A DNA stretch of 57,072 nucleotides, taken from positions 1 through 57,072 of the forward strand of contig JAIDZC010000029.1 in the NCBI GenBank assembly GCA_029057785.1. Direction: 5' to 3'. Position numbers and translations under genes: made by a program. Under the pieces are notes generated by a model, which made no database searches, was not told the origin of the DNA, and saw nothing but the letters and a program-made list of their open reading frames with translations. This document shows positions 9,852 to 30,201 of this stretch, piece after piece. Position 1 is the first letter of the stretch; each line of letters opens with the position of its first letter. Source of the stretch: Anaeroplasmataceae bacterium. GTDB taxonomy: Bacteria; Bacillota_I; Bacilli_A; Acholeplasmatales; Anaeroplasmataceae.

Positions 9852-9880
9852 TTGACAAGAAATAATTTAACAATTATAAT
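9852..9880 (+). promoter_or_regulatory. Consensus promoter of the fluoride riboswitch
   Basis: TTGACA, exactly 17 bases, TATAAT. Transcription should start near 9887, at the first base of the aptamer. Confidence 0.9.
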
Positions 9881-9886
9881 ATTTTA

Positions 9887-9980
9887 CAGGGAATGATGTT
9901 CTCCCTTGTGTAATACACAAAACCGCTTTTTAAGCTGATGACGTCTATAAGTTTTTTCTTATGGACTCATCGGCTTTTTT
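9887..9980 (+). ncRNA. Fluoride riboswitch (crcB motif) with terminator
   Basis: The RNA begins with GGGAATGATGTTCTCCC, matching the conserved GG-GATGnnGTTC-CC stem-loop of the fluoride aptamer. It continues with AACCGCTTTTTAAGC and TGATGACGTCTA, matching the AACnGCT...AGCTgATGACnnCTA half. A small extra hairpin (TTGTGT-AAT-ACACAA, 9906-9920) is inserted between. The 3' aptamer half is also the 5' arm of a terminator of about 17 bp: GCTGATGA and GTCTATAAG pair with CTTATGGAC and TCATCGGC, followed by TTTTTT at 9975-9980. The two folds exclude each other. Fluoride binding should therefore allow readthrough into the downstream antiporter. Confidence 0.9.
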
Positions 9981-19816: not shown

Positions 19817-20126
19817 AATCATTGAAGAATTCAGTTTATATTTATTAGAGGCAGAAATTCCAGCATTAAATATTTCTGTTTCAAAATCTGGGAAGAGAGT
19901 TTCTATTTTATTTGTTTGTGATAAAATAGAAGAAGAGTTATTAAATGAATTAGAGGAAATCTTTAAGGCAAAACGACAGCATGAATTTGAAGTATATGGC
20001 TGGGAGCTTATAGGTCAAGGAGATGCAGAGGGGCATGAGCTTATGCTAGTAAATAATCTTGTGGATTATTTTACATATTACATTAGGGATGGAAAGGTAT
20101 ATTTTAATTTGGTGAGATATGAGTAA
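19791..20126 (+). CDS. Small protein of unknown function
   Basis: This 111-residue soluble protein is acidic, with alternating strand and helix (LNISVSKSGKRVSILFVCDKI, VYGWELIGQGDAEGHELMLVNNLVDYF). I recognise no family. AAGGAGGAAGCGTC precedes the ATG, and the gene overlaps both neighbours (26 and 8 bases), so it is tied to the DUF1576 protein and the phosphatase. A partner role for the membrane protein is a guess from that linkage. Confidence 0.8.
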   Translation: MVENQKICRIIEEFSLYLLEAEIPALNISVSKSGKRVSILFVCDKIEEELLNELEEIFKAKRQHEFEVYGWELIGQGDAEGHELMLVNNLVDYFTYYIRDGKVYFNLVRYE

Positions 20127-20823
20127 AATTAATTGGAAATATGCAATTAAATACACGGGTATCGTAATTTGTCTTGTAACCTTTGTAACATTAGCTGTGG
20201 TCATTTATTTAAATCGATTGGAGCCTCTAGCCCTAGATTGTGTAATGCGTGATTTTGCATATAAAATAAGAGGAGAAAAGTTTGGTTTTGGATTTTGGTT
20301 TTTTAGAATCATAACAGAGTTTGGAAATCTCTATATTATAGCTGTAATTATTATAGCTGTAGTTCTTTTAACGAAATGTGATTATCGAGCTATGGCAATT
20401 TCTTTAGGAATACTCCTTGCGGTATTATTGAATGTTGGCTTAAAGGAAATCTATATGAGAGAAAGACCTTTTGCAGATATGAGATGGATGAATGAAGATT
20501 CTACTAGCTTTCCATCTGGCCATTCTACAGCAGTGGGATTTCTTTATCCATTTATAATGTATCTTACTTATCATTCTAAATCTATTTCAATCAAATGGAA
20601 AAATACAATTTATGTGGCTTGTTCCGTTATTATTCCATTAGTTATGTTTTCTAGATTAATTTTGGGTGTACATTATTTTACGGATGTTCTTGCAGGAGTA
20701 AGTGTTGGAATAATGGTTTCTTGTGCGGCAATGTTGTTTTATAAGATATGTGAAAAATATGATTTTATGCAAGAAGGACTTCTTGATAAAATTCTTAATA
20801 GCAAAAAGAATGATAAAAAATAA
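20119..20823 (+). CDS. PAP2 family membrane phosphatase
   Basis: This 234-residue membrane protein has the three acid-phosphatase motifs of the PAP2 superfamily: K-x6-RP in KEIYMRERP, PSGH in SFPSGHSTAVGF and SR-x5-H-x3-D in SRLILGVHYFTDV. Such enzymes dephosphorylate lipid phosphates such as undecaprenyl diphosphate or phosphatidate. uppP nearby has a related activity. It ends the operon. Confidence 0.92.
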   Translation: MSKINWKYAIKYTGIVICLVTFVTLAVVIYLNRLEPLALDCVMRDFAYKIRGEKFGFGFWFFRIITEFGNLYIIAVIIIAVVLLTKCDYRAMAISLGILLAVLLNVGLKEIYMRERPFADMRWMNEDSTSFPSGHSTAVGFLYPFIMYLTYHSKSISIKWKNTIYVACSVIIPLVMFSRLILGVHYFTDVLAGVSVGIMVSCAAMLFYKICEKYDFMQEGLLDKILNSKKNDKK

Positions 20824-20828
20824 AATAT

Positions 20829-20857
20829 ACTTGTAGGCTAAAGCTTACAAGTTTTTG
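20829..20857 (+). terminator. Intrinsic terminator after PAP2 gene
   Basis: ACTTGTA pairs with TACAAGT (plus GCT/AGC inside), followed by TTTTTGTTTT. Confidence 0.88.
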
Positions 20858-20933
20858 TTTTAGAAAACTTCCGGCTTCAGCTTAATACTATAAGAGTTGA
20901 ACTAGAGAAATTTAGAAAAACACAGGAGTCATT

Positions 20934-21035
20934 ATGAAGTTAATGAAAGAGGATAAATTAAAAATAACTAAAGAATCTTATTGGTTTCAACTTAGGTTTT
21001 TTAAAAATTGCAAAAATTGTAATATTATGATATAA
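20934..21035 (+). CDS. Possible 33-residue small protein
   Basis: An ATG with AGGAG 5 bases upstream opens a 33-codon frame, starting MKLMKEDKLKI and ending with the cysteine pair CKNC. It is basic, matches no family I know, and its last third overlaps the promoter of the next gene. It may be a leader peptide, a remnant or chance. The rest of the 20858-21065 gap shows nothing else clear. Confidence 0.3.
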   Translation: MKLMKEDKLKITKESYWFQLRFFKNCKNCNIMI

Positions 21036-21036
21036 T
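21008..21036 (+). promoter_or_regulatory. Promoter of the GHKL-PRTase/phosphoesterase operon
   Basis: TTGCAA (21008-21013), 17 bases, TATAAT (21031-21036) with an extended TGA. A direct repeat AAAAATTG lies over the -35 region, at 21003-21010 and 21012-21019, which could be a regulator site. Confidence 0.75.
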
Positions 21037-21065
21037 CAATAAAATCTAATCAATGGGAGGTACAT

Positions 21066-24000
21066 ATGGAAAAGATTATATGCTCTAATAAAGAAGATTG
21101 GGCAAGAATAATGGATTCATTTAGAGATAATAATGCTTCATATGAATTTGAAGTGATTATAGATGATCGGCATCAATTATCTAATTTAATTTATTTTTAT
21201 CCCTTATTTTTGAGAAATAACAATATAAGAATGCACATTTCTGTTGCTGATAATTTAGATTCAGAGGAAAATGATATCTTTTATGAAGTAAGTGCTTTAA
21301 TGTTTTTAAGTAGTCATTTGAAAAAAGAAATGAGTAATCTAGTTGCAAATGTTTATTCGTTAAAAACTAAACAAAAATATTCGGAGCGTTCTAAAGTTGT
21401 TTTTAAAACTACATTGCCATTTTTATTTTTTGACTTAGAAAATTTGCAAAAATTGAACGATATTGATGAAGAGTTTATTTTGGATTTAGATAAATTAATA
21501 TTAACATGTAACTATCAAGATTTAAATGAATTTTCTCCATCATTTGTTGTTTCTTATGAATTTGTCAAGATGTATATAAAGAAAAGTATACAAGATTTGC
21601 AAACGAGAAAAAAAGAAAATATTATTAATTCAATAATAGAATCTGGACATGATTTGAATATGCTTGCACTCTTTTTATATGTTTTTTTTATAATGTCAGA
21701 AGAAGAATCTCTTGATGATAATGATATTGTGAATTTAACCGATTTAAAATATACGATACGTAATTTGGCTATAGGTATTCATCAAATATTAGAAAATTCG
21801 TGTAAGCATTCCTGCGGTAAAATAGCCTATTTTTCTTTATCGTATTTAAATTTCGAAAGAAAAAAAAGATTTTTACCTTCTACTAATTATGAGGAAAGTG
21901 TTAGTAATCTTCAAAAGGAAATTTCTTTTTTAAATAATTATGACTTTAACACATATGAAAAGAAGTATCTTTTTATTAGAATGATTGATGATGCAAGACT
22001 AAATGAACCAGGAAAAAACACAAGTGAAGGAATAAGAGAGAAGGAAGGACGTAAAGATTCATTAAGGGAATATTTTGAATTGATATGGGACCCTACAATT
22101 CAAAATCAAGAACAAGAAGATATGTTTTTGGATAGTTCTGATTACATTCCAAGTCCTGTTTCTACAAAATATGGATTGCAAGTTTTTCTTAGGGCTTCTA
22201 AAAAATTAAACATGCAGTGTAGAGTAAACTCGCTTGAATCAAATTTTATAACAGGTTACTATAAAAAATCATTATTTTATGATTCAAATAAAAGTGTAAA
22301 TCAGCATGTTACAGAATATAGTTGTGTTATGCCATTATATTCTTCTTCTATAGGACGAACAAATATAGAAAATGGGTTATGCTATGCCAACAAGATAGAG
22401 TTGATAAATGATTTAGAAGATAGAAAAATAAGAAATATTTCATTTGATACATTATATTACGAAGCAGGGGGGTCAAAAGAAGACAAAGAAGGTATTGTTA
22501 AATATATTACTGAAAAACTATTCAACACTAAACTAAATAATAACCTGCGGGAAGAACTATGTTCTTTTGATATTTTGGAAATTGATATAAGTAATAATAT
22601 TAAAGATAGTGAGATCTTAGTAAAATGTTTAGCGAATTATATGTATGTTTTTGCTAAAATGCAATTACAATGTCTTGTATCTTTGAATTTTATTGATGAT
22701 ACAAAAGATTTTTCTTTATATAGAATATCTGATTTTTTTCAATTCTTGCTAATACTTTCTACTAGAGTACAAGGGCTTTTAAAGGAAAGAAATATAAAGA
22801 TTAAAAACAATGATTTTCAAATTGCTATATACCATAGTATTGAAGGAAATAAAAGACTTATTTCCACTATAGTAGGTATAGATTGGAATATTATCATATC
22901 TTCTTTTATTAATAATTTGCTTTATAGTAATGAATTCTCAAATAAAGATTATTTTAAGCTATATATTGATTATTTAAACCTTGAAAATTCAGTTGCAAAA
23001 AATAATGACATAATGGTTTTCCCTTATGAACTTTATGATAATGGAAAAATAACAAGAAACAGCGCATTTGTAACTAAATTAGATTCTGCTTTAAAGCAAA
23101 ATTATGTTATGCACAAAAATGTGAATGTATTGCTTAAATCGGGGTTATATTTAAATACTTTTTATGAGGCAGAACATATATTTTTAAATCACTATATAGT
23201 TTCAAGATTAGCATTGCTTATTTTTAAAGATTTAATAAAAAGCGATGATTATAAAAAGAATCAAAAAATTTTGATTGCTGGTTATGCAGATTACTCGCAT
23301 CAGTTATGTGAAGCAATTAAAACAATAATAGAGCAACAGGGAAAAGAATGTGAAATCATTTATCTATCAGGTTCAAAAAATCTAACATATAATGAAAAAG
23401 AGGAATATGATAAGAAGAAATGTTATGTAAGTATTCTGCCTATTGGCAGTACACTAAACACATTTCTTAAAATGAATGCTGTACTTAAAAATCGATATAA
23501 AAATACTAGCGCCCTTTCTAAATATATTTTTAATGTTAATTATGCGATAGTTTCTGTTGCTCCTAGAGATGAAAATAATGAGTTTTGGGAGACTATAAGA
23601 AATAATGGAATTTTTTATGAGATAAGATTTAAGACCAACCATGCTGAGTTGGGGGGAATCACCATTAAGAATTTGATTAAATTAGATACAGAATGGTCAA
23701 AAGACAACTATGGAAATGCGGCCTTAACCCATGTGAATGAGAGTTCAACGCTTCCAGACACTATTCATACTATAAAACCAAAAAAACAAAAAGATTTAAC
23801 AGAAAATTTTACAAAGTTTAGATATCTAAAAAATTCTGTTAAATATGGTCATTTTTCATTGGATAATTCGCATTATTCATTTTATATTGATCACCATAAT
23901 ATTTTAGAAAGTAATAAAGATTGCTTAAAAGATGTAGAAACTCAATTAGGTCTAGTGAAAATAGACCCTTTGGCCTATAACATAATAGTATCGCCATTAA

Positions 24001-25061
24001 ATCAAACAAATAATCTTTTTTTAGATGCTGTGGTTCAGGAAGTTTTTAAAAACAATGTTTCTATAATTCAGTTTGATCCTTTTAATACATTTCGCGATAA
24101 TTTTATACAAAAGTACAACTATATTTTGAAGACAATTGATAGAATAGCTAACTCTTCATCAAACACACAAATTAATATTTATTTTGTAGATAATACAATT
24201 ATAACTGGTAAAACTTTTTCACGAGCAAAGGAATTAGTTTATGCTCTTTTAAAAAATACAAAGTATATTCATAATAAGGATTTTTCTCCAAGAATTTTTG
24301 AAAAAGCATTTATTTTTATAAATCGATGCAGTACCAATACACTAGAAGTATTAATGCAAAGTAAAAAGAACTTGTTTATGTATTTAGATATATGTTGTCC
24401 TCATTTTGATACTAATGCAAATGTGTGTCCTGATTGTAAAATCTCTAAAAATTATCAATCTTTAATAAATTTATCTTCTAGTGGCGATTTGATTTTTGCC
24501 TGGACATCTAAAATGAACAAGCATAAGTTAATTTCAATTGATAGAAATCAGAAACTGATTTATACATTGGATGATTTTATAAGACTCTGTTTCACTCATC
24601 TAGTACTTAAAGATATTGAGGGTTTGAGTTCTTTTGATATGACAAAAAGTGATGAACTTTGTTATGAATTTGTAGATGGAAAATTTCAAGATTATGCATC
24701 TAAAGTAAAGGAACTTTATACCTTAGAAAATGATAATCAAGATGAGAAGTTTTTACGGCAATGCTTTATAAAAGTATTTTCAAGACCACTTGTCACAAAG
24801 TATGAACAAATAAAGCAAATCTCTTGGAGATTTATTAGAGCAGAATTACTAAAAGAATTAAATGATAAAACTTCTAAAGAAAAAAATTGTGATTATATAA
24901 TTTTTTTGATTGAAAGACTTTCATACTATGGATCAGATAGTTTAAAAAAAGAATGTAATAAAATAAAAGAATTTAAGAAAGATCTTTCTAAGCAACAACA
25001 AATAAAGATAGATGCGGCTTTTGAGTGGGAGTGGGCATATTCAAAGGGGATAATACGATGA
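21066..25061 (+). CDS. GHKL-ATPase-like / double phosphoribosyltransferase-like protein
   Basis: This 1331-residue soluble protein matches no family I can name. Residues 239-251 (HQILENSCKHSCG) resemble the N-box of GHKL ATPases with N244; IRMIDDAR (about 305-311) and TKYGLQVF (367-374) sit where the G1 and G2 boxes would, but are glycine-poor. Residues 690-693 LKSG with a following YEAE resemble the orotate-phosphoribosyltransferase entry strand, followed by ILIAGYADYSHQL (735-747) and LPIGSTLNTF (791-800). A second, better PRPP-binding loop, FVDNTIITGKTFSRAKEL, is at 1040-1057. A CC-P-H...CPDC cluster (1110-1124) may bind zinc. The ribosome site is GGGAGG. AT content and codon use look higher in A/T than neighbours. 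Function unknown. Confidence 0.85.
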   Translation: MEKIICSNKEDWARIMDSFRDNNASYEFEVIIDDRHQLSNLIYFYPLFLRNNNIRMHISVADNLDSEENDIFYEVSALMFLSSHLKKEMSNLVANVYSLKTKQKYSERSKVVFKTTLPFLFFDLENLQKLNDIDEEFILDLDKLILTCNYQDLNEFSPSFVVSYEFVKMYIKKSIQDLQTRKKENIINSIIESGHDLNMLALFLYVFFIMSEEESLDDNDIVNLTDLKYTIRNLAIGIHQILENSCKHSCGKIAYFSLSYLNFERKKRFLPSTNYEESVSNLQKEISFLNNYDFNTYEKKYLFIRMIDDARLNEPGKNTSEGIREKEGRKDSLREYFELIWDPTIQNQEQEDMFLDSSDYIPSPVSTKYGLQVFLRASKKLNMQCRVNSLESNFITGYYKKSLFYDSNKSVNQHVTEYSCVMPLYSSSIGRTNIENGLCYANKIELINDLEDRKIRNISFDTLYYEAGGSKEDKEGIVKYITEKLFNTKLNNNLREELCSFDILEIDISNNIKDSEILVKCLANYMYVFAKMQLQCLVSLNFIDDTKDFSLYRISDFFQFLLILSTRVQGLLKERNIKIKNNDFQIAIYHSIEGNKRLISTIVGIDWNIIISSFINNLLYSNEFSNKDYFKLYIDYLNLENSVAKNNDIMVFPYELYDNGKITRNSAFVTKLDSALKQNYVMHKNVNVLLKSGLYLNTFYEAEHIFLNHYIVSRLALLIFKDLIKSDDYKKNQKILIAGYADYSHQLCEAIKTIIEQQGKECEIIYLSGSKNLTYNEKEEYDKKKCYVSILPIGSTLNTFLKMNAVLKNRYKNTSALSKYIFNVNYAIVSVAPRDENNEFWETIRNNGIFYEIRFKTNHAELGGITIKNLIKLDTEWSKDNYGNAALTHVNESSTLPDTIHTIKPKKQKDLTENFTKFRYLKNSVKYGHFSLDNSHYSFYIDHHNILESNKDCLKDVETQLGLVKIDPLAYNIIVSPLNQTNNLFLDAVVQEVFKNNVSIIQFDPFNTFRDNFIQKYNYILKTIDRIANSSSNTQINIYFVDNTIITGKTFSRAKELVYALLKNTKYIHNKDFSPRIFEKAFIFINRCSTNTLEVLMQSKKNLFMYLDICCPHFDTNANVCPDCKISKNYQSLINLSSSGDLIFAWTSKMNKHKLISIDRNQKLIYTLDDFIRLCFTHLVLKDIEGLSSFDMTKSDELCYEFVDGKFQDYASKVKELYTLENDNQDEKFLRQCFIKVFSRPLVTKYEQIKQISWRFIRAELLKELNDKTSKEKNCDYIIFLIERLSYYGSDSLKKECNKIKEFKKDLSKQQQIKIDAAFEWEWAYSKGIIR

Positions 25062-27397
25062 ATGAAATTTTATATTTATTAGAAAAAATATTGCCGTTTT
25101 ATGAAAAAGAAGTTAATAATATTATCTGTGAAGAAATTGATGATAATATTAAAAATTTAGAGTGTTTATTAGATAGAAAAACTATGCAGCAAAGAAAGAT
25201 TACTGCTGAATTGTTGAAAAATAATGAAATTAAGGAATCATTATGCTCTATAAAATTAGATTTTCTAAATCTTATTGATAAATCTATTAATCGACTTAAA
25301 TCAAACTCGGAAATATATTTAGGAAATGCTTTTGATCTTGAAGAAATGAAAGAAGAAAAAAAATATATATATTTGAAAATGTTATTTTTAAGCAAGCATA
25401 TGGAGTTTTTAGATGGATGTGAAAATGATAATGTTGAATATTTTTTTATGTGCTTGAATAGGTTTTTAAAAGAGATTTTAGATTACAATAGTTGTATTTT
25501 TCTGCATAATCATAACAAAAAAGTTCTCATTAGTTGGAATATAAGTAATGAGGATTTGAAAGCATTGGATTATGAATCTTTTGAGAATATGAATCGCTCT
25601 GATATTGATAATAGAGATTCTTCAATAGTTTCAATAAAGCATAGTATAAGCGAAACAAAAAAAATTGAGTTTTTCGTTTTTAATTGTAATCAAAATGATA
25701 GAGAAACTATTGAAGAAAAAATAAAAATGTATTTTCAATTAACTAGAGAATTTTATTTGAGATATTATAAAAGACTTTTAAATATAGATAGTAATAGATA
25801 TTCACAAATAGGTAATCATAAGTTTTTTTTGGATGCTACACAATTTATTTTAAAGAATAACTTTAGTTATAATAGAAAATTGAATGATGAAATTCCTAAA
25901 GAAAAGTTAAATATTTTGCATATTAGCGATTGTCATATTAAATCTCAAAATGATTGTGCTTTTGCTCAAAAATTTTTGAATTATATGACTTACAATTTCA
26001 ATAAGGTATATAAATATAATAATGGAATGTTTCAAAGTTGTGATGATTACCCCAAAAAAGATAGTGAGGAAAATAAAGTAATTTTTTTAGAAGATAAAAT
26101 AGATTTTATAGTTGTTACAGGAGACATAATCCAAGCAGGAAAAAGTTCAAAAGATATTTTAGAGAATTACCAAGAGGCTTACAAGCAAATTAGAATAATT
26201 GCACAAAAATTTCTTGGTAATATATGGAGAAATCGTCTTTTAATTATACCTGGGAATCATGATTATGGTATGATAAATGAGTTAGAAATTAAATTGAAAG
26301 ATAGATCTTATGAGTCTTCATCATTAGTGCAAAGTGGAATGACAGAATTTAATAAATTTGCTTTTTTCCATTTGATATTTGATAAGACTATGTTTGATGC
26401 TGATTTAAGCGAGCAGAAAAAGAAAATATACCCTCACAAATTAACTTACAAGATAAAATCTAACTTACAATTATCTTTTTATCTTTTTAATACCTCAGCA
26501 AATGCAAATTTTATTAGAAGTAATAAAGTTACTCTTGCTGATTTTGATGAACATTTGATATCAACCCAGATAGATTTAGATGAAAAAAATATTTTACTAA
26601 TGCATCATACCGAACTTAATCAGATTAATTACTATAGAGATATATTCGTTTCAGATAAATATAAAGAATACATACAAGATGAAGTTATTTTAGGATGTTC
26701 AAGGGATCATTTTGAAGTGATTTCAAAGATTATTAGTCCTGAATCAACGAATTCCCTAAGGGAGAACATGAAAAAACTAAAAGATATACACACTTCTTGT
26801 AATAAAAAATTAGATGAAAGATATTTTAGAAGAAAACAAAGTATTGAAAGTTTAAAGATAGACAATAACTATAAAATAATATTAATTAGTTCACTTGATA
26901 ATATTGTCAGCGAAATAAGAAGATATAATAATAAGCTTTATAATGCTTTCGCTTCTAATTATAATGTAGGACAGAATGTCGATGAAAATGACGTTTTAAG
27001 AGAGGATTATTATAAATTAGAATCATATTTTAAAACTAGTGTTGATGATGACAAAAGATTTAAAGAAAAATTCCAAAGTTGGATTGCAGCCTTTGATTCT
27101 TGTATTGTTCTAGGAGGGCATCAACATTGTCAATCGTTCAAAGAGAAAATAGAGTTTAAAGACAGAAAATCTATTCCTAAATATACCATTTTAGAGGCCG
27201 GTAAAACAATTGATGAATCACAGGGAAATCGTTTCAAATTCAATATTATATCTTATATGGCAGATATAGACAAGTTTGAATACTATAGTTCTGTCCCATT
27301 ATCAGTGAAAGATAAACAGATGTGTATTTTCACTGAAGTTGCAGAAGAAACAAAAGAGGCATTAGATGATTCCTATGATGATGAAGCTAAAGAATGA
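25058..27397 (+). CDS. Calcineurin-like metallophosphoesterase with N-terminal sensor-like region
   Basis: This 779-residue protein overlaps the upstream gene by ATGA; AAAGGGGA supports the start at 25058. The phosphoesterase motifs are complete: D291-x-H293, G355-D356 in VVTGDIIQ, G399-N-H-D402, H516-H517 in LLMHHTE and G687-H-Q-H690. A stretch of about 150 mostly helical residues is inserted between the last two motifs. Residues 1-105 are helical and 115-260 look like a GAF-type fold (an eye judgement). Family members hydrolyse phosphodiesters in nucleic acids or cyclic nucleotides. The tight coupling to the GHKL/PRTase-like protein suggests one two-component system, possibly conflict- or signalling-related. 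Confidence 0.85.
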   Translation: MNEILYLLEKILPFYEKEVNNIICEEIDDNIKNLECLLDRKTMQQRKITAELLKNNEIKESLCSIKLDFLNLIDKSINRLKSNSEIYLGNAFDLEEMKEEKKYIYLKMLFLSKHMEFLDGCENDNVEYFFMCLNRFLKEILDYNSCIFLHNHNKKVLISWNISNEDLKALDYESFENMNRSDIDNRDSSIVSIKHSISETKKIEFFVFNCNQNDRETIEEKIKMYFQLTREFYLRYYKRLLNIDSNRYSQIGNHKFFLDATQFILKNNFSYNRKLNDEIPKEKLNILHISDCHIKSQNDCAFAQKFLNYMTYNFNKVYKYNNGMFQSCDDYPKKDSEENKVIFLEDKIDFIVVTGDIIQAGKSSKDILENYQEAYKQIRIIAQKFLGNIWRNRLLIIPGNHDYGMINELEIKLKDRSYESSSLVQSGMTEFNKFAFFHLIFDKTMFDADLSEQKKKIYPHKLTYKIKSNLQLSFYLFNTSANANFIRSNKVTLADFDEHLISTQIDLDEKNILLMHHTELNQINYYRDIFVSDKYKEYIQDEVILGCSRDHFEVISKIISPESTNSLRENMKKLKDIHTSCNKKLDERYFRRKQSIESLKIDNNYKIILISSLDNIVSEIRRYNNKLYNAFASNYNVGQNVDENDVLREDYYKLESYFKTSVDDDKRFKEKFQSWIAAFDSCIVLGGHQHCQSFKEKIEFKDRKSIPKYTILEAGKTIDESQGNRFKFNIISYMADIDKFEYYSSVPLSVKDKQMCIFTEVAEETKEALDDSYDDEAKE

Positions 27398-27556
27398 TAA
27401 TGGGAATGATGGTTTAGCTTATGCTCATTAGTATTTTAGGCACTTTCAATATGATAAAGATTATCAAAAAATTTACTTTTTTATATAAGAATATAGTGTG
27501 CAAGTTACCTAAAGAATAAAAAGTAATAGACTTTAGGTGAAATGTTAAAAAACGTA
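27398..27556. other. Intergenic stretch with an inverted repeat
   Basis: After the phosphoesterase stop no gene or clear terminator is seen. ACCTAAAG (27508-27515) and CTTTAGGT (27531-27538) form an 8-bp perfect inverted repeat with a 15-base gap, not followed by Ts on the plus strand. The rest is AT-rich. Confidence 0.5.
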
Positions 27557-27585
27557 TTGACAATATATTATATATGTAATATAGT
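27557..27585 (+). promoter_or_regulatory. Promoter of the pemK-like leader RNA
   Basis: TTGACA, 17 bases, TATAGT. Transcription should begin near 27592. Confidence 0.85.
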
Positions 27586-27591
27586 AAAGGT

Positions 27592-27735
27592 GAGCTAGTA
27601 AAAGTCTATAAGTAAGAACTCTACTTCTTATAGATGGCTAAGACAATTGAATGTAGTAGAGTGGTTTTCCGAATGGATAGCGTGATTGAAAATGATGAGT
27701 ACAAATGTACTCTCAAATTTGATCACGCTTTTTTG
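27592..27735 (+). ncRNA. Structured leader RNA with terminator upstream of pemK-like gene
   Basis: The leader can form TCTATAAG...CTTATAGA (27605-27612 with 27626-27633). Its loop sequence ACTCTACT (27619-27626) is exactly complementary to AGTAGAGT (27655-27662), giving an alternative stem or pseudoknot. It ends with a long terminator: AGCGTGAT with ATCACGCT, inner GAGTAC/GTACTC, then TTTTTT, only 18 bases before the ATG. This is an attenuator layout. A pemK RNA motif in front of pemK genes in Firmicutes has been reported from comparative genomics; I recall it but cannot align to it here. Confidence 0.75.
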
Positions 27736-27752
27736 TTTGAAAGGGAGATAAG

Positions 27753-28241
27753 ATGAAAAAGAGATATTCTGACTATGTGAATCCAAAATCTGAAAGGTTA
27801 AATAGAATACCAGTAACTATAGGTTCTGTTATTGTAGCTTATTTATTTGATTATGAAAGATTACCTAAATATGTAGAGGATCATAAGAGAGAATCTGTGG
27901 TGGTACTTAAGGATATCAACGATGAACTAGGAGTAGTGTATATACATGGAATAAATAGTATTGATGGGAAATCAAGACATAAGAAGAAGGAAGCAGGACT
28001 ATGGGAAGAGATTGAGAAGAATGGGCAAAGGGTATTTGTAGATATCAATATACGAACTATAGATGTAGAAGGTAAACCAATTAAACAGGGAGCCAAGTTT
28101 AAGAATACGGGTATATTGTTAGAGCCAAAACAGCTTGCAAAGGTAGAGGATCATATATATAAGACTAAAGGTCGTAGCCATAGCGTTAGAAACCAAATTA
28201 CGCGAAATAAAGAAATTAAAGCAAAAAAAAATAAGGCTTAA
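27753..28241 (+). CDS. PemK/MazF-like toxin-type protein
   Basis: This 162-residue basic protein shows the PemK/MazF strand pattern: IGSVIVAYLF, then RESVVVLKDINDELGVVYIHG, and the later FVDINIRTID followed by an ILLEPKQLAKVEDHI helix. PemK/MazF proteins are RNases acting on mRNA. No protein antitoxin gene is adjacent on either side, so the usual type II partner is missing. Control by the leader RNA is the likely alternative. The C-terminus (about 135-162) is very lysine/arginine-rich. AAGGGAG precedes the ATG. The family call is by eye from strand motifs. Confidence 0.7.
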   Translation: MKKRYSDYVNPKSERLNRIPVTIGSVIVAYLFDYERLPKYVEDHKRESVVVLKDINDELGVVYIHGINSIDGKSRHKKKEAGLWEEIEKNGQRVFVDINIRTIDVEGKPIKQGAKFKNTGILLEPKQLAKVEDHIYKTKGRSHSVRNQITRNKEIKAKKNKA

Positions 28242-28255
28242 ACCTTATTTTGACT
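28229..28255 (+). terminator. Intrinsic terminator of the pemK-like gene
   Basis: AATAAGG pairs with CCTTATT (loop CTTAAA region), followed by TTGACTTTT. The stem overlaps the stop codon. Bases 28256-28360 show nothing else. Confidence 0.7.
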
Positions 28256-28360
28256 TTTCAACCATATGTCGTTTCCACCCAAGCCTAGGCAATTTATATT
28301 GTAGCATAGTGAATTTTTAATGTCAATTCTAATCTTCGAAATTTAAAATATTTGAATTTT

Positions 28361-28903
28361 TCATTTTTTATATTCTGTTTGATATGCTAGCATCTCTAAT
28401 TTCTTAATATTTAATATATTAAAGAGTTTATTATGCTTTGATATGATTTCTTTAGACTCAAGATATTTCAATGTTTCAGATAAAGTACTTTTATTTAGAT
28501 TAAGATATATGGATAAATCACTGATAGATAGTGTAATATAAAAGCTTTCAGTTTTATTATTTAAATATTCAAAATATAGATATCTTGAAATTTTTGTAAT
28601 AGGATCATTCAATAAAAGTAGTTCAGTTTGATTTTTCTTTTCTTGAATCATTTTAGACAGTATTGGAAAATAACTTGTATCAATATCACACTTATCAATC
28701 CACTCTCCAGCAACCAAATCTAACGCATAATATTCATCTAGAGTGTAAGGATTATAAAAGATTTGATCTAAAAATAAATAGTCTTTAGGACCATAACTTT
28801 CAGTTTTTCTTGTGTTAGTAATATGACCTTTAGTAATTTTAAATATTTGATTGATATATGCATTTTTTGTTATGATGATTTCGTTTCTTAAGTATGTTTT
28901 CAT
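28361..28903 (-). CDS. Crp/Fnr-like transcriptional regulator
   Basis: This 180-residue protein has a shortened N-terminal effector domain (INQIFKITKG matches the Crp beta-roll) and a C-terminal winged helix, LSISDLSIYLNLNKSTLSETLKYLESKEII, with the closing wing. No cAMP-binding or Fe-S cysteine motif is seen, so the signal is unknown. The ATG lies directly after the T-run of the terminator of the upstream dehydratase gene and has no visible ribosome site, so it would be translated from a nearly leaderless RNA or readthrough. The gene probably regulates the adjacent operon; this is inferred from position. Confidence 0.72.
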   Translation of the reverse strand: MKTYLRNEIIITKNAYINQIFKITKGHITNTRKTESYGPKDYLFLDQIFYNPYTLDEYYALDLVAGEWIDKCDIDTSYFPILSKMIQEKKNQTELLLLNDPITKISRYLYFEYLNNKTESFYITLSISDLSIYLNLNKSTLSETLKYLESKEIISKHNKLFNILNIKKLEMLAYQTEYKK

Positions 28904-28905
28904 AT

Positions 28906-28937
28906 AAAAAAACTAAGCTGTTTATTTTACAGCTTAG
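28906..28937 (-). terminator. Terminator between dehydratase-like gene and crp-like gene
   Basis: On the minus strand CTAAGCTG pairs with CAGCTTAG (loop TAAAATAAA), followed by TTTTTTT. The stop codon of the dehydratase-like gene lies in the loop. Confidence 0.88.
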
Positions 28938-30201
28938 CACCCTCGTTTTCTTCAATTTTTTCTCTAGCAATTGCTAGCATAAGTTTAATTCTGTTTTCTT
29001 GATTTACTTTAGTAGCTGAAGGGTCATAGTCAATCGCTACGATATTTGCATCTGGGTGAAGAGATTTAATCTTTTTCATAACACCTTTACCACAAATGTG
29101 ATTTGGCAGACATCCAAATGGTTGTGTACAAATGATGTTATCATAGCCTATTTCAACAAGCTCCATCATTTCCGCAGTTAGAAGCCAACCCTCACCCATC
29201 TTTGTTCCATGAGATAGAATACCTTCAGATAAATCTTTAGTATGAGAGAAGTATTTCATTGGCGTGAATTTTGTCTTTTTCATACTTTGAATCATTAGCT
29301 TTTCTCTACGCCTTAAATACCAAATAATAAATTTAGATCCTAGTTTCTTTACTTTTCCGTGGCCATAGAATTCACTATCATAAATAGAGTTATATAGACA
29401 GTAGAGGATAAATCCATAAAGACCTGGAACCATAACCTCAGCATGTTCACTTACTAAGAAATCTTCTAAGTGATTATTTCCTAAGGCAGCGTATTTCACA
29501 TAGATTTCTCCGACAACTCCAACCTTTGGTATGGCATGTGTTAAATCTAAAGATAATGCATTAAAGCTTTTGGCAATAGCATTTAGGTTCTTTCTTAAGG
29601 CTCTATAGGAAACACCTTTTTTCTTGCCGAATTGTTCTCCTATTTTTTCAACCCATTCTAATGCAAGTTTTTTTGCAGAGCCAGCTTCAGTTTCATAAGA
29701 ACGTGTCTTATTAAATAAGTACATGATTTCATCGCCATAGGTCATTGCTGCTGCAATCTTTTTGATTAGAGAATAAGTAAGCTTTAAGCCACTATCCTTT
29801 TCTAGATTAGAAGCATTTAAAGAAACAACAGGAATAAAACCATAGCCTGCTTTATCTAACGCCTTTCTTAAAAGATGAATATAGTTAGAAGCCCTACAGC
29901 CACCACCTGTTTGAGTAATAAGAAGAACTAGTTTATCGTGATCTGTTCTATGGTTTAAGTTATCGATAAATTGCCCGATGACAAGTAATGCAGGATAACA
30001 GGTATCATTATGTACATACTTTAAGCCTTCTGTAACAACGTCAGGTCCTTCATTTCTCATAATCTCTACATTGTATCCTGAAACAAGAAGCGCCTTTTCG
30101 AATAAAGCCATATGAAAAGGAAGCATAGAAGGAATTAAAATGGTATGAGTTTTACGCATAGAAGCGACAAATCTTGGATATTCTTTAACTTCAGATTCCA
30201 T
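28927..30201 (-). CDS. 2-hydroxyacyl-CoA dehydratase-like (HgdB-type) protein
   Basis: This 424-residue protein follows the activator gene with a TAATG overlap and its own AAAGGAGG site. Cysteine-bearing motifs include NDTCYPALLVIGQF, GGGCRASNYIHLLRKAL and CTQPFGCLPNHICGKG, consistent with a Fe-S protein of the HgdB/BcrB-related group. In many Firmicutes this domain is fused to the activator in one polypeptide of about 1400 residues; here the two are separate coupled genes. The real substrate of this family is not established. Confidence 0.8.
   Translation of the reverse strand: MESEVKEYPRFVASMRKTHTILIPSMLPFHMALFEKALLVSGYNVEIMRNEGPDVVTEGLKYVHNDTCYPALLVIGQFIDNLNHRTDHDKLVLLITQTGGGCRASNYIHLLRKALDKAGYGFIPVVSLNASNLEKDSGLKLTYSLIKKIAAAMTYGDEIMYLFNKTRSYETEAGSAKKLALEWVEKIGEQFGKKKGVSYRALRKNLNAIAKSFNALSLDLTHAIPKVGVVGEIYVKYAALGNNHLEDFLVSEHAEVMVPGLYGFILYCLYNSIYDSEFYGHGKVKKLGSKFIIWYLRRREKLMIQSMKKTKFTPMKYFSHTKDLSEGILSHGTKMGEGWLLTAEMMELVEIGYDNIICTQPFGCLPNHICGKGVMKKIKSLHPDANIVAIDYDPSATKVNQENRIKLMLAIAREKIEENEGAKL

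Follow-up and report, generated by a model that had tools for sequence, protein, structure and literature searches.

The described systems closest to this locus are the DefensePredictor systems DS-8 and DS-9, in which catalytic mutants of the phosphoesterase (DS-8 itself and DS-9A) abolish phage defence, with a substrate that is unknown (PMC13092281). DS-8 is a single-protein metallophosphatase-NACHT, and DS-9 is composed of a metallophosphatase, DS-9A, and a HAD phosphatase, DS-9B (PMC13092281). PRTases have been proposed as effectors in type III retrons and together with DprA (PMC9122126, PMC12548924).

Here we describe a two-gene unit in which a predicted calcineurin-like phosphoesterase is coupled to a much larger protein of no known family. 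The unit lies in a 57,072-nucleotide stretch of DNA from an Anaeroplasmataceae bacterium, hereafter the window, with the following layout.

21066-25061, plus strand: gene 1 (P0001), encoding a 1331-aa protein of no known family
25058-27397, plus strand: gene 2 (P0002), encoding a predicted 779-aa calcineurin-like phosphoesterase
21008-21036, plus strand: candidate sigma-70 promoter TTGCAA-17-TATAAT (with TG), preceding the operon
20830-28370, no strand: variable interval (hotspot), empty in sister genomes G001, G004, G006 and G009, with other cargo in G003, G007 and G010
20829-20862, plus strand: left junction, the terminator of the PAP2 gene, where the alignment with sister genomes ends
27405-27520, plus strand: right junction, the degraded 3′ remnant of a small phosphoesterase gene that is intact in G003 and G007

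Both open reading frames run head to tail on the plus strand and overlap by the four letters ATGA, with the ATG of gene 2 at 25058 and the TGA of gene 1 at 25059-25061, and a GGGAGG ribosome site is present upstream of the gene 1 ATG. An earlier note on this DNA, made from its letters, had described two overlapping genes behind one promoter; the overlap is confirmed by the coordinates of the reading frames, whereas the promoter site, although present, carries little weight, since this AT-rich stretch has many such matches, only modestly more than its shuffles (72 promoter-like sites in the region versus a shuffle mean of 57.1, s.d. 7.4). The two genes have GC contents of 26.1% and 25.0%, as opposed to a mean of 32.5% (s.d. 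2.1%) for 30 other long open reading frames in the window. Of the two neighbours that had been named for this AT-rich island, a PAP2 unit and a PemK-like gene, the latter (at 27753) has no significant match in Pfam or PHROGs.

The interval that holds the pair is bounded by PAP2 (20119-20823) on the left and, on the right, by a gene at 28927-30201 and the Crp-like regulator next to it, and these flanks are conserved in sister species. The interval measures 7.5 kb in the window versus about 231 bp in G006 and about 29 bp in G009, and it is likewise unoccupied in G001 and G004. From 27405 on, 8 bp past the stop codon of gene 2, the window DNA matches the G003 element at 86% over 753 bp. This alignment starts within the small phosphoesterase gene, at its 3′ end, and the window copy of that gene is broken by a stop codon and frameshifts. 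A remnant of cargo thus abuts the pair, which has replaced older cargo that was removed from the hotspot, a site of active exchange. The best reading of the locus is that the pair is hotspot cargo, acquired horizontally and recently.

The cargo of the sister genomes was read at loci L041 and L042 (G003), L043 (G007) and L045 (G010). The G003 contig that leaves PAP2 encodes a protein resembling a deoxyribosyltransferase/TIR effector (by PADLOC), a 713-aa protein with no Pfam match and a TIR protein. The G003 contig that reaches the regulator encodes TIR, TIR-NACHT-LRR, ClpP, a type IV coupling protein (T4CP) and the small phosphoesterase, as well as three tandem copies of a 162-aa gene (L042:13888-15632), of which the window has one, at 27753-28241. 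We infer from their flanks, rather than from assembled sequence, that these two contigs meet in one interval. On the same right flank, G007 carries DNA-transfer genes and an HTH-IrrE protein, and G010 carries DNA-transfer genes and a NACHT-LRR-type protein. The sets of ClpP and type IV coupling protein in the sister cargo probably belong to an integrative element. In G005 (L047, L048), element-like genes lie beside the right flank, but PAP2 is on a different contig, where ABC transporter genes adjoin it, which suggests a rearrangement.

Two RNA-level features were noted in the window. The leader of the 162-aa gene (27540-27752) contains a TTGACA-17-TATAGT promoter, a stable fold (z = −4.0), a loop ACTCTAC that can pair with a downstream GTAGAGT, and, immediately ahead of the ribosome site, a terminator-like hairpin with a T-run. 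This leader is kept in the first G003 copy and in G007. It has no match in Rfam, and the order of promoter, RNA, terminator and small protein resembles that of type III toxin-antitoxin loci. A fluoride riboswitch aptamer is found at 9880-9954 (49.2 bits).

Three of the phosphoesterase motifs of gene 2 are located as follows.

25928-25936, plus strand: phosphoesterase motif I, DCH, gene 2 residues 291-293
26252-26263, plus strand: phosphoesterase motif III, GNHD, gene 2 residues 399-402
27116-27127, plus strand: phosphoesterase motif V, GHQH, gene 2 residues 687-690

All five calcineurin-type motifs claimed for gene 2 are present and in order (D291xH293, G355D356, G399NHD402, H516 and G687HQH690), an ordered set that appears in none of 5000 shuffles, and Pfam Metallophos (PF00149) matches residues 285-528 with E = 2.8e-10 and 41.4 bits, versus a cut-off of 21.5. 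The protein is thus, as judged from its sequence, a divergent calcineurin-like phosphoesterase within PF00149. Ahead of the phosphoesterase lies an N-terminal region of 280 aa whose fold is without assignment; a GAF domain considered there was not supported. The sole NCBIfam match of gene 2 is to NF053862, the model of the DS9_1 anti-phage phosphoesterase (DS-9A), with E = 3e-10 over residues 268-467; its 39.5 bits fall far short of the cut-off, which is 420. This match may mirror only the common fold, since Pfam Metallophos scores equally well.

Gene 1 has no meaningful match in Pfam, PADLOC, NCBIfam, PHROGs or PDB sequences. Three short segments of it are located as follows.

24180-24215, plus strand: PRPP-loop-like YFVDNTIITGKT, gene 1 residues 1039-1050, the only one of the motifs to exceed chance
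23433-23465, plus strand: ILPIGSTLNTF, gene 1 residues 790-800, a proposed degenerate PRPP loop, unsupported by either pattern or profile
21780-21812, plus strand: N-box-like HQILENSCKHS, gene 1 residues 239-249, for which the GHKL reading is unsupported

The earlier note had seen in this protein a GHKL-like N-box, an OPRT-like LKSG entry and two PRPP-loop-like segments, and had called it GHKL/double-PRTase-like. Of these motifs, only the one containing VDNTIITGKT stands out: YFVDNTIITGKT fits a relaxed PRPP-loop pattern, chosen after the motif was seen, that just 2 of 5000 shuffles contain, whereas ILPIGSTLNTF does not fit it. The strict PROSITE signature PS00103, in the form used here, does not match residues 1039-1050, because the loop reads D-N in place of the D-D or E-D of the family. 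With hhalign, the same residues are set on the PRPP loop of the HPRT (hypoxanthine PRTase) profile, and composition-matched shuffles score equally; the Pfam Pribosyltran and PRTase-CE profiles give no match to gene 1. With one PRPP-loop-like motif at most and a profile comparison no better than composition-matched shuffles, the double PRTase is not upheld. The LKSG entry occurs in 260 of 5000 shuffles (5%), which is not above chance. The PRPP idea for gene 1 draws on this one motif, and ribose-phosphate signalling by the pair is speculation.

The GHKL reading is not supported either. The N-box-like pattern is found in 112 of 5000 shuffles, the G1 (DxGxG) and G2 (GxGL) boxes are absent from gene 1, and the GHKL profile gives about 0.3% in hhalign, versus 17-73% for controls consisting of six distant single GHKL sequences of GyrB/HtpG size. 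AlphaFold models built without homologues reach pLDDT values of 34.9 and 37.5, too poor for statements about fold; the model with pLDDT 34.9, a single-sequence one, served as the check on a PRTase fold. In another Bacilli genome (L003), a PRTase-CE protein is encoded directly 3′ of a reverse-transcriptase fragment, likely a retron.

Searches for relatives of the two proteins covered genomes, plasmids and viruses. For gene 1, the searches gave no homologue among 100 relatives or among genomes drawn from the order (160), the phylum (392) and the class (395), these draws overlapping, and neither did scans directed at its motifs across 84,980 species genomes and across IMG/VR viral contigs. The scan probes (A1-A6) were artificial alignments for search use only, with extra rows altered or scrambled except at chosen motif variants. 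Because the scans demand exact short motif matches, absence is not proven by them, and distant relatives of the pair may exist. By tblastn, neither protein found anything in plasmids and phages, and for gene 2 even a threshold of E = 1 gave no relative in the 72,556 plasmid and 50,697 phage records searched; blastn of the locus against plasmids was equally empty. The 100 relatives and 392 phylum genomes contain no convincing homologue of gene 2: weak partial matches of 93-139 residues (E from 2.6e-5 to 9.7e-4) were judged spurious, and all fall within the first 200 residues, a part of the protein that lies outside its phosphoesterase domain. None of 600 phosphoesterase-motif stretches from IMG/VR is a relative of gene 2 at E ≤ 1e-3, and PDB sequence searches returned nothing or noise. 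The gene 2 protein is an outlier. As no homologue was found, no repeated co-occurrence with defence genes can be cited for the pair, which counts against a defence reading.

What might the pair do? We give an even chance to a conflict system, probably anti-phage, with the phosphoesterase as its catalytic arm. The large gene 1 protein would then be a sensor or partner enzyme that recognises infection or binds a nucleotide-type ligand, possibly via a C-terminal PRPP-loop domain, and the gene 2 phosphoesterase would use its metal site to cut a phosphoester in the nucleotide pool, a signal or a nucleic acid; by analogy with DS-8 and DS-9, this cutting would stop phage growth. The conflict-system flavour that had been proposed from the letters gains indirect support from the insertion hotspot and the DS-9A-like phosphoesterase. 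Against it, the DS9_1 match may stem from the common fold, PADLOC gives no match, and hotspot cargo can be non-defensive; the pair might serve nucleotide salvage or have a surface or regulatory role with no phage link. The presence of DNA-transfer, ClpP and small phosphoesterase genes in the hotspot favours such mobile-element cargo, but in the window the pair has neither an integrase nor a transfer gene beside it and clear defence-type proteins are found among the sister cargo, and we regard it as possible though doubtful. Several phosphoesterases of the calcineurin-like fold are nucleases (Mre11/SbcD), and the metal site of gene 2 is complete, both of which would suit a nuclease acting on phage or plasmid nucleic acid with gene 1 as a mere sensor or scaffold; this seems unlikely, given that gene 2 matches no SbcD/Mre11 model in NCBIfam or Pfam and that no nucleic-acid-binding domain was seen.

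Two further explanations, and one variant of the anti-phage reading, give gene 1 an enzymatic part. In a signal system, a PRPP-using gene 1 protein, with a GHKL domain and two PRTases, would make or consume a ribose-phosphate nucleotide signal to which gene 2 responds or which it degrades, a proposal helped by the one motif beyond chance and by the PRTases proposed as retron- or DprA-linked effectors (PMC9122126, PMC12548924). It is improbable in our view, as gene 1 has no PRTase profile match and its profile comparison lies at shuffle level, its loop is D-N and not D-D or E-D, and GHKL is unsupported. We consider it decidedly unlikely that the pair is an anti-phage system of a new type, whose giant PRPP-loop protein would make or consume a ribose-phosphate nucleotide and whose ATGA-coupled phosphoesterase, with an N-terminal sensor of its own, would act on this nucleotide. 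To our knowledge, ribose-phosphate signalling chemistry of that kind is not described in any known defence system. We find it very improbable that gene 1 is a toxic enzyme whose product gene 2 removes, so that the unit is silent until infection: the tight ATGA coupling would fit the fixed stoichiometry of a toxin and its off-switch, but nothing points to toxicity, and the phosphoesterases of DS-8 and DS-9 are required for defence, not for immunity to a partner (PMC13092281).

If the pair is a defence system, DS-8 and DS-9 would be joined by a third phosphoesterase-based type, one whose 1331-aa partner is recognised by no current library, and the pair would help to answer the still open question of what such phosphoesterases cut. 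The large gene 1 protein could raise the novelty if its fold and function are found. The locus also marks a hotspot of defence genes and mobile elements in a poorly known Bacilli genus, which can be mined directly.

Compared with the described systems, the pair shares most with DS-9: a two-gene unit, a calcineurin-like phosphoesterase behind a long N-terminal region, and NF053862 as the sole NCBIfam match. Unlike DS-9, the gene order is reversed and the 1331-aa partner, which has no HAD match, replaces the HAD phosphatase; membership of DS-9 was rejected on the lack of a HAD match and on the NF053862 score, far below its cut-off. With DS-8 it shares a large protein mass joined to a phosphoesterase and a defence context, but here there are two proteins, with no NACHT match in either and no P-loop match in gene 1. 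The likeness to PRTase-CE, type III retron and DprA-PRTase systems is confined to the PRPP-loop-like motif in gene 1; PF24390 matches nothing in this genome, and the unit has neither reverse transcriptase nor DprA. The small phosphoesterase of the hotspot (L042:12937-13653, PDC-S10-like in PADLOC), whose decayed end lies beside the pair, has the calcineurin-like fold and occupies the same hotspot, but it is a single-domain protein of about 232 aa with no detectable kinship to gene 2 beyond the fold. PADLOC models of catalogued defence systems give no match to the pair, and the earlier claim of a phosphoesterase-containing two-gene unit matching nothing catalogued agrees with the Pfam, PADLOC, NCBIfam and PHROGs searches. 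On sequence grounds, the pair is none of DS-9, DS-8, PRTase-CE or the PADLOC systems, and in kind it resembles the phosphoesterase-containing defence units.
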